Below are positions 40,000 through 47,051 of a DNA stretch of 64,000 bases, in pieces. The notes beneath the pieces are model-generated. The model saw only the letters and a list, made by a program, of their open reading frames with translations. It was not told the origin of the DNA and made no database searches. Origin of the DNA: Candidatus Rikenella faecigallinarum (GTDB taxonomy: Bacteria; Bacteroidota; Bacteroidia; Bacteroidales; Rikenellaceae); NCBI GenBank assembly GCA_019113395.1, contig DXHL01000026.1, positions 1 through 64,000 of the forward strand, read 5' to 3'. Numbering within the stretch: position 1 is the first letter of the stretch; each line of letters begins with the position of its first letter. Both the position numbers and the translations under genes were made by a program.

Positions 40000-40166
40000 C
40001 GTGTCAGGGCTTCCTCGCTTGGGGTTTATCTGCTCTTGGCTTTCTCTTCCCTCCGGGAGAGGCTGAGCTGCTCCCTGCGCCTTCCCCCTCTTCTCCTACC
40101 GGATACCCCTGCGGATTACTCCCCCCTTATCCCGCTCCTTCCATTCCCCCTCACGCTACTCCTGCA
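40000..40166 (+). repeat. 165-bp repeat, second copy (inverted relative to 1-165)
   Basis: Matches the reverse complement of 1-165 over its whole length with limited substitutions. Its far end (CTCCTGCAC) contains the stop codon and last codons of the minus-strand gene fragment at 40156-40818, so the repeat boundary lies inside coding sequence. Confidence 0.85.
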
Positions 40167-40818
40167 CGCAACGAACCGGAAAACCATATGATCTAGCAGT
40201 AGATGGAAACCCTTGGTCAGTCATGGTAAACATAAAATTCTTGGCATAAAATTCAACAACGGAAGAGGGCTTTGATGTCCATACGTAGCCATTACCCCCA
40301 ATAGAATTTAATTTACCTGCATTCCTATGACGATATCCGCCGGCAGGGTACCAACTGACATTCAGGTAATTTCGACCATTTGTCATATTCATATCTCCTG
40401 TTGCAATCAATTCCCCTTCTATATAATATGAGAAATTATCTGCCGAAAAATCTCCGAAAGTCTTTTCGGCATCCGGTGGGACACGCCACCCGTTTGGGCA
40501 GGGATCATATGTGCTTTTCTCTGCTCCGTCTCCCCACAATGCATCATTATGATTACCTGCATAGGTATACCAATCATGGGGTTCATCCGCATTGTAGATG
40601 AGAGTCAATGGATGCTTGACAGCATAGATTTGTGAAGTTCCGCCATTTATTACTCCACTTGCTGTAATATTAACTTTTCGGAAACCTGTACCGCCTTCCG
40701 ATAGTAGTATTCCATCTGCTCCATAAATAGCTATGGTTTCTGCATTAGGGGAGCCTGACTGCTGTATCGTGCTGCCGTCGGCGCCCGGAATAGCGTCCTT
40801 GCGGCCCCTCGACGCCAT
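40156..40818 (-). pseudogene. Truncated surface-protein gene, C-terminal FISUMP/Lcl-like domain
   Basis: A 220-codon frame whose product has no signal peptide or lipobox and looks like the C-terminal part of a larger surface protein. DPCPNGWRVPPDAEKTFGDF, YWYPAGGYRH-type segments (here SWYPAGGYRHRNAGKLNSIGG), GYVWTSKPSS and the terminal SYGFPVRCVQE are typical of the Fibrobacter succinogenes major paralogous/Lcl C-type-lectin-like domain found at the ends of Bacteroidota fimbrillins. An in-frame stop lies 8 codons upstream of the first ATG. The sequence is clearly more AT-rich than neighbours. It ends inside the 165-bp repeat, suggesting a moved or silent cassette. Could be a small expressed gene, but lack of an export signal argues against function. 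Confidence 0.65.
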
Positions 40819-40830
40819 ACCCCTGCTCCG

Positions 40831-40896
40831 CTTAACATTCCCTTAATACAAACTTAACGCAAGCCTAAGAAGAACGTAAGCAGCCGTTAACATGGG
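40831..40896 (+). promoter_or_regulatory. Six 11-bp direct repeats (putative Pho-box array)
   Basis: Units start at 40831, 40842, 40853, 40864, 40875 and 40886, exactly 11 bp apart: CTTAAC, CTTAAT, CTTAAC, CCTAAG, CGTAAG, GTTAAC, each followed by five variable bases. PhoB-type regulators bind 11-bp direct half-sites. The array ends 5 bp before the -7 box of the phosphate operon, which lacks a -33 element, as expected for an activated promoter. Confidence 0.75.
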
Positions 40897-40901
40897 CATC
40901 C

Positions 40902-40909
40902 TATGTTTG
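40902..40909 (+). promoter_or_regulatory. -7 box of the phosphate operon (TATGTTTG)
   Basis: TATGTTTG fits TAnnTTTG. No TTTG is found 19-20 bp upstream; that position is occupied by the 11-bp repeats. Confidence 0.65.
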
Positions 40910-40956: not shown

Positions 40957-42267
40957 ATGAAACGCAAATTGACAACGTTGGCCTTGGCGGCCATGACCTT
41001 GGCCGGGTCGAACGCCTTCGCTGCCGAACACGAAAAAAATGAGACTTCGGCGGTAAACAATGAACTTACTCCCAAAGTAGAAGAGGGTGGACTGAAAGTG
41101 CGCTTCGGCGAAAAAGGGGGTACGCTGAAAGTTTCGGGCTACCTGCAGGCACAGTGGCAATGGGCTCAACAGGACGGGATTGATGCTTTTGGCGATGGCG
41201 GCTCGTTCGCTGCAAATAGCGACAACCGCTTTATGATTCGGCGTGGACGGGTGAAATTTACGTATGACCTGGGCGGGATTATGCAGGTGGTCATGCAGCC
41301 CGACTTTACTGAAAAAGCGGTGCGTATTCGCGATGCTTATATTAAACTGACTGCTCCCTCGCAGATTATCGGAGGTCAGGTGGGTATTTTTGACCGTCCG
41401 TTCGGGTATGAAATCAACTACTCGTCGTCCAATCGTGAAACTCCTGAACGCAGCCGCGTGTATCTGTCGTTGTTCCCCAACGAACGCGACCTCGGGGCAA
41501 TGCTGACCCTTAAAGGCAAGAAAGGAACCTTCTGGAACCGTTTTACGCTCGATGGCGGCCTTTTCAATGGCAACGGGGTCGGTTCGGAAACCGATTCGCA
41601 CAAGGACTTCATTGGTCGTTTGGCCTATGAACATCGATACAAAACGGGGGCTTGGGGTGCTGCATTCTCGTACTATGGCGGCGGGGTGCTGAACCCGACC
41701 AACGAAAATTACAAATTTGTGGAAAACGAAGGGTACGTGCAGCAGGAAGACGTCAAAGGCGACTATTCAAAACGTCACTATTTTGGTGTGGCTGCCAAAG
41801 TGTCGCAGAAGTGGGCGCTGGGGACAACACATATCCGTGCCGAGTATTTGTGGGGTAAGCAGCCCGGTACGCTGAACAAAAATGCCGACCCCGGGGGAAC
41901 TTCGTTCGGGGCAGGTACCGACCCGCTTTATTTGCGTGACTTCCGTGGGGCGTATGTCTACTTCATTCAGGACATCGGGAAATCGAAACACTCGCTGGTC
42001 TTCAAATACGACAACTACGACCCGAATACCAAAATCAGCGCCGACCAGATTGGTCAGCTCCCCGGTACCGGGATTGCCGATGTGGCTTACAATACGTATG
42101 GTGTAGGGTATCTGTTCCGTTGGAACAAGTATTTGACACTGTCGGCCTACTACGATTTTGTGAACAACGAGAAGTGTGCCAATCTGGGCAGCACCGACCC
42201 GCTGAAGGACTACGCCAGCAACATCAAGGACAATGTGCTGACGATACGGGTTCAGGCGAAGTTCTAA
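40957..42267 (+). CDS. Phosphate-selective porin (OprO/OprP family)
   Basis: A 436-residue outer-membrane beta-barrel. Signal peptide MKRKLTTLALAAMTLAGSNAFA, then GGTLKVSGYLQAQWQWAQ (about 57-74), FMIRRGRVKFTYDLGGIMQVVMQPDF and alternating strands up to the terminal LTIRVQAKF ending in Phe, the usual barrel end. The OprO/OprP family forms trimeric anion/phosphate channels. As first gene behind the Pho-box-like array and ahead of pstSCAB-phoU it very likely admits phosphate to the periplasm. Start at 40957 gives the best signal peptide; an ATG two codons earlier is equally possible. Confidence 0.88.
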   Translation: MKRKLTTLALAAMTLAGSNAFAAEHEKNETSAVNNELTPKVEEGGLKVRFGEKGGTLKVSGYLQAQWQWAQQDGIDAFGDGGSFAANSDNRFMIRRGRVKFTYDLGGIMQVVMQPDFTEKAVRIRDAYIKLTAPSQIIGGQVGIFDRPFGYEINYSSSNRETPERSRVYLSLFPNERDLGAMLTLKGKKGTFWNRFTLDGGLFNGNGVGSETDSHKDFIGRLAYEHRYKTGAWGAAFSYYGGGVLNPTNENYKFVENEGYVQQEDVKGDYSKRHYFGVAAKVSQKWALGTTHIRAEYLWGKQPGTLNKNADPGGTSFGAGTDPLYLRDFRGAYVYFIQDIGKSKHSLVFKYDNYDPNTKISADQIGQLPGTGIADVAYNTYGVGYLFRWNKYLTLSAYYDFVNNEKCANLGSTDPLKDYASNIKDNVLTIRVQAKF

Positions 42268-42339: not shown

Positions 42340-43152
42340 ATGAAAAAGATTGTGATGCTTTTGGCTGCCGCAGTTATGGTGAGCGGTACGGTGTCGGCAC
42401 AAAAACTCAAAGGGTCGGATTCGGTGTTGCCGCTGGCCCAGAAAGAGGCGGAAAACTACCTGAAAAAGAATCCGTCATCCGGAGTGACGGTAACCGGTGG
42501 CGGTTCGGGGGTGGGTATTGCCGCCTTGATTGACAATACGACCGATATTGCGATGGCTTCGCGTAAAATCAAAATCGATGAACGCATGAAGCTGCAGAAT
42601 GCCAAACGTCCCGTGGTGGAAAAAATCATTGCCTGGGATGCGCTGGCTGTGGTGGTCAATCCGAAAAACCCCGTTTCGCAGCTTACCCGCGAACAGTTGG
42701 AAGGTATCTTCACCGGGAAGATTACCAACTGGAACCAGGTGGGCGGACCGAACATGAAGATTGTGGTTTACTCGCGTGAAACCAGCTCGGGAACCTATGA
42801 GTTTTTCAAGGAGAGTGTCCTGAAAAACAAAAACTACATGGCTTCGGTTCTCTCGATGCCGGCCACGGGGGCCATTATTCAATCCGTGTCGCAGACGCCG
42901 GGGGCTATCGGTTATGTCGGCCATGCGTATGTGAATGATGAGGTGAAAGCCATCCGCGTGTCGTATGACGGCAAGAACTTTGTGGAACCGACCTACGCCA
43001 ACGCCAAAAACAAAAGCTATCCGGTGGTTCGTCCGCTCTACTTCTACTACACCAAAGACCACGAAGCCAAAGTTAAGGCATTCATCGACTATGTGATGTC
43101 GGCCGAGGGGCAGAAGTGGGTGAAAGAGGTCGGATATATTGATGTGCTGTAA
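42340..43152 (+). CDS. pstS: Phosphate-binding protein PstS
   Basis: A 270-residue periplasmic binding protein: signal peptide to VSAQ (about 20), then KGSDSVLPLAQ (phosphate-binding loop), TGGGSGVGIAAL (about 52-63) with the anion-binding Ser/Gly residues, IAMASRKI, LTREQLEGIFTGKITNWNQVGG (about 115-136) and SRETSSGTYEFF, all standard PstS motifs. It delivers phosphate to the PstCA channel. It is the second gene of the operon, 72 nt after the porin. Confidence 0.95.
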   Translation: MKKIVMLLAAAVMVSGTVSAQKLKGSDSVLPLAQKEAENYLKKNPSSGVTVTGGGSGVGIAALIDNTTDIAMASRKIKIDERMKLQNAKRPVVEKIIAWDALAVVVNPKNPVSQLTREQLEGIFTGKITNWNQVGGPNMKIVVYSRETSSGTYEFFKESVLKNKNYMASVLSMPATGAIIQSVSQTPGAIGYVGHAYVNDEVKAIRVSYDGKNFVEPTYANAKNKSYPVVRPLYFYYTKDHEAKVKAFIDYVMSAEGQKWVKEVGYIDVL

Positions 43153-43269: not shown

Positions 43270-44478
43270 ATGAACAGACGACTGAAAAGAGTAGTCGAAC
43301 TCATTGCTGAAAAGATTTTGATGGTCAGCGGAGGGCTAACCTCCGTGACCATCATCCTGATTGTCTTTTTCCTGTTCAAGGAGGGGATAGGTCTTTTCGG
43401 CAGCCCGACAGTTGAACAGGGGTATGTGGTGGCGGTCAATCGCGAAAATACGGTGCGCAACCTCAGCCCTGTGCAGCTCAAGGAGATTTTCGACAGCGAA
43501 GTGACCAACTGGAGTCAGTATGGGGGTGCCGATGAGCCGATTGTGGTTTTCCGCATCGACGACATCGACCAATATGTCAGTTATGAAGAGTTGGGGGATG
43601 AGTTGCAGTTCATTCCGCAGTGTCTGAGCAAAATCATTGCCGACCACCCCGGAATGATAGCCTTCTTCCCGGATACCTATCTTGCGGAGGATTTTGCGGG
43701 CAGGATTATTGATAAGCGGAACATCACGCCGGGAGAGTTTTTCTTGGGTGACGAGTGGTTTCCGACGGCTACGCCCGCTCCGCTCTTCGGGATTGTTCCG
43801 CTGGTGATGGGGACACTCTGGGTGTCGCTGGCGGCGATTCTCTTTGCGTTGCCGCTCGGCATGGCGGTGGCTATCTACATGGCCGAACTGGCCAACGACA
43901 AGGTACGAAAAGTGCTCAAACCGGTTATCGAGTTGCTGGCGGGGATTCCGTCCGTGGTCTACGGTTTCTTCGGGTTGGTGGTTATCGTGCCGCTGATTCA
44001 GCAGCTCTTCGGATTGCCCGTCGGCGAAACGGCTCTGGCCGGGAGTGTCATTCTGGCTATTATGGCCCTGCCTACGATTATCACCGTGGCCGAAGACTCC
44101 ATCCGCAATGTGCCGCGTGCCGTCAAAGAGGCCTCGCTGGCACTCGGTGCCACCCAGTGGCAGACCATTCGCCGCGTCGTACTGCCGTACTCCGTCTCGG
44201 GTATCATGGCAGCCGTGGTGCTCGGTATCGGACGTGCCATCGGGGAGACCATGGCGGTGCTGATGGTGACCGGTAACTCGGCCATCATTCCCCACGGCCT
44301 GTTGGAACCCGTGCGCACCATTCCTGCCACCATCGCGGCCGAACTGGGCGAGGCTCCCAACGGCGGGGTTCACTACGAAGCCCTCTTCCTGCTGGGGTGT
44401 ATCCTCTTTGTGATTACGCTGATTATCAGTATTACGGCTGAAATGATGGCGGCCAAGAAACCCAAACAACAGATATAG
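43270..44478 (+). CDS. pstC: Phosphate ABC permease PstC with PstS-like insertion
   Basis: A 402-residue inner-membrane permease, longer than the ~315 residues of E. coli PstC. TM1 (about 17-43) is followed by a periplasmic insertion (about 46-160) in which LSPVQLKEIFDSEVTNWSQYGG (65-86) mirrors LTREQLEGIFTGKITNWNQVGG of PstS, and IIADHPGMIAFFPDTY resembles the later PstS P-G-x-I-x-Y segment. The normal permease core follows, with GIPSVVYGFFGLVV and the EAA-type loop ([20 protein letters not shown]). Insertions of this sort may exist in other Bacteroidota PstC; the function is unknown. Confidence 0.93.
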   Translation: MNRRLKRVVELIAEKILMVSGGLTSVTIILIVFFLFKEGIGLFGSPTVEQGYVVAVNRENTVRNLSPVQLKEIFDSEVTNWSQYGGADEPIVVFRIDDIDQYVSYEELGDELQFIPQCLSKIIADHPGMIAFFPDTYLAEDFAGRIIDKRNITPGEFFLGDEWFPTATPAPLFGIVPLVMGTLWVSLAAILFALPLGMAVAIYMAELANDKVRKVLKPVIELLAGIPSVVYGFFGLVVIVPLIQQLFGLPVGETALAGSVILAIMALPTIITVAEDSIRNVPRAVKEASLALGATQWQTIRRVVLPYSVSGIMAAVVLGIGRAIGETMAVLMVTGNSAIIPHGLLEPVRTIPATIAAELGEAPNGGVHYEALFLLGCILFVITLIISITAEMMAAKKPKQQI

Positions 44479-44654: not shown

Positions 44655-45539
44655 ATGAGTACCTTAATCAATACGAAATTCGACCGCCGCAAACGGCGTA
44701 CCCAGGGGGTAGCCTTCTGGATATTCCGCCTGATGAGCCTGGTGGTGGTGGCCATTCTGGTCTGGATACTGGGCTTTCTGGTAGTCAAGGGTATCGGGGT
44801 CGTGAACTGGGAGTTTCTCACCTCCATGCCCGAAGACGGCATGACCAAAGGCGGTATCCTGCCCGCGATTGTCGGGACCCTCTGTCTGGTGGTCGGCAGT
44901 ATGATTTTTGCCTTCCCCATCGGGGTGATGTCCGGCATCTACATCAATGAATATGCTCCGAACAACTGGCTGGTGAAGTTCATCCGCGTGATGACCAACA
45001 ACCTCTCCAGCATACCCTCCATTGTTTTCGGGCTCTTCGGGATGGCACTTTTTGTCAATACGCTGGGCTTCGGGGACTCGATACTGGCAGGGTCGCTGAC
45101 CCTGGGGCTGTTGGTGCTGCCGGTGGTTATCCGCACTACCGAAGAGGCGCTTAAGGCCATCGACAACAGCTACCGCAACGCCTCGCTCGCCCTCGGTGCC
45201 ACCAAACTCCAAACCATTCGGCGCGTTATCCTGCCGATGGCCTTCCCGAATATTATCACGGGGCTTATCCTCTCCATCGGTCGCGTCTCGGGCGAAACGG
45301 CGCCCATCCTCTTTACGGTGGCTGCCTACTTCCTGCCCAAACTGCCTACCAGCATTTTCGACCAGGTAATGGCTCTGCCGTACCACCTCTACGTGCTGGC
45401 CACCAGCGGTACCGATATTCAGGCAGCGCGGCCCATGGCCTACGGAACAGCTCTGGTGCTGATTCTCATTGTGCTGCTTATCAACCTGCTGGCCAACGGT
45501 CTCCGAGCCTGGTTCGGGAAAAAAGTGAAAACCAACTAA
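44655..45539 (+). CDS. pstA: Phosphate ABC permease PstA
   Basis: A 294-residue inner-membrane permease with about six hydrophobic segments. The PstA signatures [16 protein letters not shown] (about 117-132) and the EAA-type loop [29 protein letters not shown] (about 175-203) that contacts PstB are clear. Pairs with PstC to form the phosphate channel. Starts 176 nt after pstC, the gap being filled by hairpins. Confidence 0.95.
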
Positions 45540-45555
45540 TCAATACGATACAACT

Positions 45556-46317
45556 TTGGAAAAGCAAACTATTATCTCGGCGCAACACGTCAATTTCTGG
45601 TACGACGATTTTCATGCGCTGCGCGACATATCGCTCGACATCGAGGCCCATACCGTGACGGCCTTTATCGGTCCGTCGGGATGCGGAAAATCGACTTTTC
45701 TGCGTCTGTTGAACCGCATGAACGACCTGGTGGACGGTTCGCGTCTCGAAGGCAGCATCCTTATTGAGGGCGAAGACATTTATGCCAAGGGGGTTATGGT
45801 CGATGAGTTGCGCAAACGGGTGGGGATGGTCTTTCAAAAACCCAATCCGTTCCCGAAAACGATTTTTGAGAACATTGCCTATGGGCTTCGGGTCAATGGT
45901 GTCCGCGACAAGGCCTTTATCGAGCAGCGTGTCGAAGAGTCGCTCAAGGGGGCGGCGCTGTGGAACGAGGTGAAGGATAAACTGAAAAAATCGGCCTTTG
46001 AGCTCTCGGGCGGGCAGCAGCAGCGCCTCTGTATTGCCCGTGCGTTGGCCGTGCAACCCTCGATTCTGCTGATGGACGAACCGGCCTCGGCACTGGACCC
46101 CATCTCGACCTCGAAAATCGAAGAGTTGATATACGAACTCAAAAACGATTACACGATTGTCATTGTCACGCACAACATGCAGCAGGCAGCCCGTGTGTCG
46201 GACCGTACGGCGTTTTTCTATCTCGGCGAGCTGATTGAATACGGCGAAACGAAAAAGATATTCCTCAGCCCCGAAAAGGCACAAACGCAGAATTACATCA
46301 CGGGGCGTTTCGGTTAG
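45556..46317 (+). CDS. pstB: Phosphate ABC transporter ATPase PstB
   Basis: A 253-residue ATPase with [19 protein letters not shown] (Walker A, about 37-55), [18 protein letters not shown] (Q-loop and PstB-specific segment), [15 protein letters not shown] (ABC signature), [13 protein letters not shown] (Walker B) and the switch His in VTHNMQQ. The only start that keeps the N-terminal strand [15 protein letters not shown] is TTG at 45556, 16 nt after pstA; no in-frame ATG is available before residue ~54. Confidence 0.96.
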
Positions 46318-46364: not shown

Positions 46365-47051
46365 ATGAAACAGACTGAAATAGAAATCAAAGAGCTCAAG
46401 GGGCATTTGGCACAAATGTGGTCGCTGGTCGAACAGCAGGTTCGTAAGAGTTTCGATGCCGTGGTGGCCTTCGACAAGGACCTGGCTCACGAAATCATCT
46501 CGCGTGAAAAGAGTGTCAATGCGCAGGAGCTGGTCGTAGACCACCATTGCGAAAACTTTATCGCGCTTTTCAATCCGGTGGCCGTGGACCTGCGTTTTGT
46601 GCTGTCGCTGCTCAAAATCAACAACAATCTGGAACGCATCGGCGACTTTGCCGAGAGCATTGCCCTCTTCACGGCTCACCACCAGCAGCGGGTCATTGCC
46701 CCTGAACTGCTCAAGCAACTTCAACTCAAAAAGATGTTCGAGACGGTGCTCAAGATGATGGAGCAGGCCCGTACGGCGCTGGCCAAAGAGGACAGCCGTC
46801 TGGCCAGCCGCGTATTGGGATTGGACGATGTGGTGGACCTGATTCACCGTGATGCGGTACCTGTTCTGGCTGCCTACATCAACGGCCATCCCGACGAAAC
46901 CATCGAGGTGATGGGCATTCACAACGTGGTTCGTCGCGTGGAGCGTATGGGCGACCGGCTGAGCAACATTGCCGAAGACATCGTTTTCTATGTCGATGCC
47001 AAGGAGTTGCGCCATACGGCCTATACCCAACTGCCCAAAGAGGAAAAATAA
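46365..47051 (+). CDS. phoU: Phosphate signalling protein PhoU
   Basis: A 228-residue all-helical protein with two PhoU repeats (about 10-100 and 115-210), each containing the characteristic E/D-rich helix pairs, such as VDLRFVLSLLKINNNLERIGDFAESIA (about 68-94) and VVRRVERMGDRLSNIAEDIVFYV (about 187-209). PhoU links PstSCAB to the PhoR sensor kinase and represses the Pho response in high phosphate. It closes the operon; no phoB or phoR gene is in the window. Confidence 0.95.
   Translation: MKQTEIEIKELKGHLAQMWSLVEQQVRKSFDAVVAFDKDLAHEIISREKSVNAQELVVDHHCENFIALFNPVAVDLRFVLSLLKINNNLERIGDFAESIALFTAHHQQRVIAPELLKQLQLKKMFETVLKMMEQARTALAKEDSRLASRVLGLDDVVDLIHRDAVPVLAAYINGHPDETIEVMGIHNVVRRVERMGDRLSNIAEDIVFYVDAKELRHTAYTQLPKEEK

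Follow-up and report, generated by a model that had tools for sequence, protein, structure and literature searches.

Repeats upstream of the pst cluster

The window that we analysed, a stretch of 64,000 nucleotides from Candidatus Rikenella faecigallinarum, carries a cluster in which the gene for a porin-like outer-membrane protein is followed by pstS, pstC, pstA, pstB and phoU (Table 1). The nearest named relatives of its PstS are found in Millionella massiliensis (93% identity) and Rikenella. Just downstream of pstS there is a second PstS-like match, a PF12849-type binding-protein domain, which recurs in many relatives. The divergent ORF on the other side of the intergenic region is probably not part of the switch considered here.

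Table 1. Features of the pst promoter region and the downstream genes, in window coordinates.
Feature	Position	Strand	Remark
Divergent ORF, Fib_succ_major domain	40156..40818	-	Left boundary of the intergenic region
Unit 1, distal	40831..40841	+	CTTAACATTCC; kept in genus relatives
Unit 2	40842..40852	+	CTTAATACAAA; kept in genus relatives
Unit 3	40853..40863	+	CTTAACGCAAG; kept in genus relatives
Unit 4	40864..40874	+	CCTAAGAAGAA; kept in genus relatives
Unit 5	40875..40885	+	CGTAAGCAGCC; kept in genus relatives
Unit 6, promoter-proximal	40886..40896	+	GTTAACATGGG; kept in genus relatives
Spacer CATCC, 5 bp	40897..40901	+	Same length in 86/105 loci
-7 box TATGTTTG, type TAnnTTTG	40902..40909	+	No -33 element in the 30 bp upstream
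Porin-like outer-membrane protein, first gene	40957..42267	+	By inspection; no Pfam/NCBIfam match
pstS	42340..43152	+	TIGR02136, 255 bits
pstC, N-terminal PstS-like stretch	43270..44478	+	TIGR02138; PF12849 at residues 40-95
pstA	44655..45539	+	TIGR00974
pstB	45556..46317	+	TIGR00972
phoU	46365..47051	+	TIGR02135

The array spans positions 40831-40896 and consists of six direct repeats at exact 11-bp steps of one helical turn, upstream of phosphate-starvation genes (pstSCAB-phoU), as is expected of a Pho box. The six hexamer starts listed in an earlier note on this DNA are exact. Its description of the repeats as CTTAAC-type hexamers stands for the core, as TAA occupies unit positions 3-5 in all six units and is their sole invariant part, but not for the strict form YTTAAY, which only three of the six match. 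The earlier note also placed the end of the array 5 bp before a -7 box without a -33 element, and both statements hold: TATGTTTG has the TAnnTTTG form of the -7 element of Bacteroides-type -33/-7 promoters, and no TTG or TTTG occurs within the 30 bp upstream of it.

Bacteroidota intergenic DNA is commonly TTAA-rich, and a loose four-unit version of the pattern also matches controls in AT-rich genomes, so a chance or compositional periodicity in a functionless AT-rich spacer has to be considered. The probability of this explanation is negligible. At step 11, TAA recurs at most six times in a row anywhere in the window, the six being the array itself; at the other steps from 6 to 30 no run exceeds three. 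No run longer than three occurred in 120 windows simulated with a first-order Markov model. The 84 bp ahead of the -7 box were also Markov-shuffled 20,000 times, and here too the maximum was three, reached in 39 shuffles. The exact triple YTTAAY-N5 occurs a single time in the 2.07-Mb genome. In the five relatives from the genus, moreover, all six units with their TAA cores are kept in register while the spacers have diverged, and chance periodicity is refuted by the simulations together with this conservation.

Register and promoter distance across Bacteroidales

When loci from Rikenellaceae and other Bacteroidales were scanned with a hexamer matrix set by hand, comparing spacings from -8 to 21, an in-register array stood 5 bp before a T[AT]nnTTTG box in 86 of 105 loci; each other spacing was found in five loci at most, except for the same register displaced by 11 bp. 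A matrix trained on these loci holds information at unit positions 2-6 and falls to background level upstream of unit six, and is descriptive only, because the training loci are the scanned loci. Among a further 14 pst upstream regions of the class, eight have, at the 5-bp spacing, an array that scores above 14 bits (L284 among them is probably from the same organism as L124), and one other locus of the set scores 18.5 at a control spacing. We gave up the supposition that only this genus has six units, since Bacteroides, Breznakibacter and uncultured Bacteroidales also have six in-register positions.

In Bacteroides fragilis S82, where pstC lies head-to-head with pstS, the pstC promoter reads TGTAACACAAA TGTAACACCTT TGAAACACTTC CTTCAAACGGT ATTCACACATC CTTAATACTTA CTCTG TTTCTTTG. 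As in our array, there are six in-register positions ending 5 bp before the -7 box; by contrast, TAA is kept in only three of the six units, the two distal units are TGTAAC, and the species has a canonical PhoB and a PhoR, encoded adjacent to each other. In strain YCH46, pstC expression was reported to depend on PhoB, which bound a 512-bp pstC promoter fragment in EMSA, with no motif given (PMC3547664). We infer that this fragment includes the array. The promoters of both pstC and phoB carry an array in Bacteroides: a four-unit array at the same 5-bp spacing precedes phoB in B. fragilis, B. cellulosilyticus and P. distasonis (L188, L189 and L190), which suggests autoregulation of phoB in Bacteroides and Parabacteroides.

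Because the register and the 5-bp gap recur at pst promoters, including the PhoB-bound B. fragilis pstC region, we consider from sequence comparison that the units form a Pho-box array and that the promoter depends on an activator. Its 11-bp direct repeats hold a fixed position beside the core promoter and take the place of the upstream element. The earlier suggestion of a Pho box of several half-sites at pst, here read as replacing the -33 element, thus gains support from the Bacteroidales-wide register and the B. fragilis region.

Tandem 11-bp Pho boxes are already known from E. coli, Streptomyces and cyanobacteria, and the PhoP box of Bacillus subtilis, a member of a different phylum with a different promoter type, consists of tandem TTAACA-like repeats at a spacing of about 11 bp. 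E. coli PhoB binds head-to-tail to direct-repeat units of 11 nt (PMC4415409), and its repeats precede the -10 element by about 10 bp (PMC1906773). The units here have the same length and orientation, and 10 bp likewise lie between the end of the promoter-proximal hexamer and the -7 box, so that a bound regulator could, by analogy with PhoB, replace the -33 contact. The E. coli box differs in its CTGTCAT-type repeats, in a basic form of two units, in the sigma70 TATAAT-type -10 element in place of TAnnTTTG and in the sequence of its regulator. Closer in its letters is the cyanobacterial SphR box, which has at least three tandem repeats of CTTAACCT with 3-bp linkers (PMC1906773) and shares both the 11-bp period and the CTTAAC core with our array; it comes, however, from a distant phylum and has three units rather than six, and a fixed -7 geometry is not described in that paper.

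The candidate regulator and the repeat letter

The earlier note expected a cognate PhoB to bind the array. In this genome, which is 98.65% complete, only two proteins have the OmpR/PhoB DNA-binding domain PF00486 (Trans_reg_C), and both combine this winged helix with a receiver domain. They score about 210 (209.5-210) and about 160 bits against NF053854, the model by which we define the canonical Bacteroidales PhoB, whose cut-off is 270 bits and which B. fragilis PhoB matches at 378.7 bits; canonical PhoB is thus absent here. Likewise, no protein above this cut-off was found in the near-complete genomes of R. microfusus and M. massiliensis (two contigs each). The likely regulator is instead a second PhoB/PhoP-like response regulator, encoded at G000:C19:21959-22663 on the minus strand (G000 being this genome) and called the C19 regulator below.

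Could the C19 regulator simply be a diverged orthologue of the canonical PhoB, so that the box is an ordinary one and no change of regulator has occurred? Its best model is NF053854, at 210 bits, and it is the better match to B. fragilis PhoB of the two OmpR-type regulators in the genome. We downgraded this possibility once both types had been found together: about 15 of the 60 Rikenellaceae searched have one protein of each type, a canonical PhoB (above 270 bits), whose gene often comes right after pst, and a distinct protein of the C19 type (about 185-220 bits), so the C19 type is a separate lineage. The canonical PhoBs also form a supported clade of their own, and C19-type regulators occur in 55 of 60 genomes of the class, mostly at 50-67% identity. 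Simple orthology is therefore unlikely. The recognition helices of the two types differ, RTIDVHIRKLREKI with KGVGYK against RTIDVNITRLRKKI with RLGYGY. The presence of canonical PhoB is variable within one genus (g8; G008, G028, G041, G049, G057, G063 and G069), and its gain or loss seems recent.

Binding by a regulator that responds to a stress other than phosphate limitation, either the CusR/RprY-like OmpR-family regulator C4 or a member of another family, appears less probable still. Units 4 and 5 of the array end in TAAG, and similar 11-bp arrays of the form TTTAAG-N5-CTTAAG precede efflux-like genes in other Bacteroidota, but the array under study is tied to pst promoters with its register fixed to the -7 box across Bacteroidales, the homologous promoter region of B. 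fragilis is bound by PhoB, and C4 has an atypical helix and no array in its own promoter. The TTTAAG-N5-CTTAAG arrays (L093 and L094, position 1501) are distinct, lie before heavy-metal-efflux-like genes and probably serve as operators for a different OmpR-family regulator.

The C19 regulator is, judging from the comparisons above, the best candidate for binding the array. Homologues of a kinase encoded at G000:C35:581-1600 (minus strand), apart from the C19 regulator, lie directly downstream of the C19-type regulator in 21 of the 29 class genomes examined, so that a putative two-component pair appears to be split over two contigs here. The neighbours of the two genes on these contigs are cardiolipin synthase-like and riboflavin synthase-like genes. 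C19-type regulators are also present in Rikenellaceae that have a canonical PhoB and [TC]GTAAC arrays, and their usual targets may therefore be others.

In Riemerella anatipestifer, DAP-seq of PhoP gave TTTAACA as the most conserved nucleotides, with hundreds of targets (PMC9603813). This is also a Bacteroidota regulator, and its motif matches the T-type units of our array; as a difference, the text consulted describes neither an 11-bp array nor a pst target. From the class-wide distribution, the Riemerella PhoP is plausibly the same regulator as the C19 type, and the class-wide adjacency of regulator and kinase is compatible with C19 and C35 being a Riemerella-type PhoPR.

The letters of the repeat differ with the presence of canonical PhoB. 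Of the 46 genomes in which the array could be read and the PhoB status was known, those with canonical PhoB have mostly [TC]GTAAC units, and those without it mostly [CG]TTAAC units and a larger number of TAA-bearing units. Counting TAA-bearing units only, as the mean per genome, G occupies position 2 in 79% with PhoB (n=30) and in 17% without it (n=16; Mann-Whitney p 1.5e-7, uncorrected for phylogeny), and the arrays contain 3.03 and 4.75 TAA-bearing units, respectively. Left out of this table were G018, G036 and G083, which have no readable array (the first two lack canonical PhoB, yet have no array at the 5-bp spacing; G083 has PhoB), G096, in which the array is followed by a CAAATTTG box, L140, which has no array, L147, with a truncated PhoB match, and L112. 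The association was noticed first among Rikenellaceae; a test in other Bacteroidales followed, in which five loci (L116, L120, L141, L142 and L144) combine T-type arrays with a lack of canonical PhoB. There are exceptions in the table: PhoB is present in L045 and L164 although most of their units are T-type, and L062 is mixed. As a general Bacteroidota motif, the CTTAAC proposed earlier is not supported, as the commoner form in Bacteroidales is [TC]GTAAC and CTTAAC or GTTAAC accompanies the absence of canonical PhoB.

On balance, we lean towards a history in which the control of the pst promoter in Bacteroidales passed between two distinct PhoB/PhoP-type regulators: the operator held its 11-bp register and its 5-bp distance to the -7 box, while the letter at position 2 of each repeat (G or T) and the count of strong units followed the regulator. 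If true, the swap of regulators with a matched change in cis would count as an exceptionally clean case from nature.

A proposed phosphate switch

We consider it likely, from the sequence evidence taken together, that the array is an extended Pho box through which a C19-type regulator, with the C35 kinase as its probable partner, activates the porin-pstSCAB-phoU cluster. Binding, phosphorylation, activation and the pairing with the kinase are the steps that we infer in this model; the array with its conservation and spacing, the lack of canonical PhoB and the accompanying letter change are observed. Under phosphate limitation, an OmpR/PhoB-family response regulator would be phosphorylated, probably by the C35 homologue, and this regulator would most likely be of the C19 type rather than the canonical Bacteroidales PhoB. 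It would then bind head-to-tail to the six 11-bp units, on one face of the helix and with room for three dimers, the promoter-proximal unit occupying the -33 position. From there it would bring RNA polymerase to the -7 box TATGTTTG and so switch on the cluster.

The earlier note anticipated enrichment of the motif at other phosphate promoters, and pattern searches of this genome for strong or three-unit sites did not find it. No second strong anchored site was found in the 2.07 Mb with two mismatches allowed, the numbers of matches being those of a reversed-pattern control apart from the array itself, and a three-unit pattern gave only two matches, both weak. Weaker two-unit sites may exist elsewhere in this genome. 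A weak three-unit TTAA array (L075, G000:C38:39805-39832) lies immediately upstream of a gene for a PiT-type phosphate transporter, on the opposite strand. It was rejected as a second site because it does not keep register with the likely -7 box and because chance could produce a match of this strength. Across the phylum, matches to the pattern include phoB-like regulators and a PhoD phosphatase; they also include many unrelated genes, and because of these and of the control matches in AT-rich genomes the phylum-wide pattern is not proof of enrichment.

In the open literature we found no defined Pho operator for Bacteroidota except the Riemerella DAP-seq motif, and no description of the Bacteroidota 11-bp version, its promoter geometry or the regulator-linked letter. 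The array provides a concrete sequence and promoter geometry for a Bacteroidota Pho operator, in which a single letter of the repeat predicts which of two regulators governs phosphate uptake in a gut bacterium. It may also offer a convenient system in which to study how a regulator is replaced while its binding sites co-evolve.
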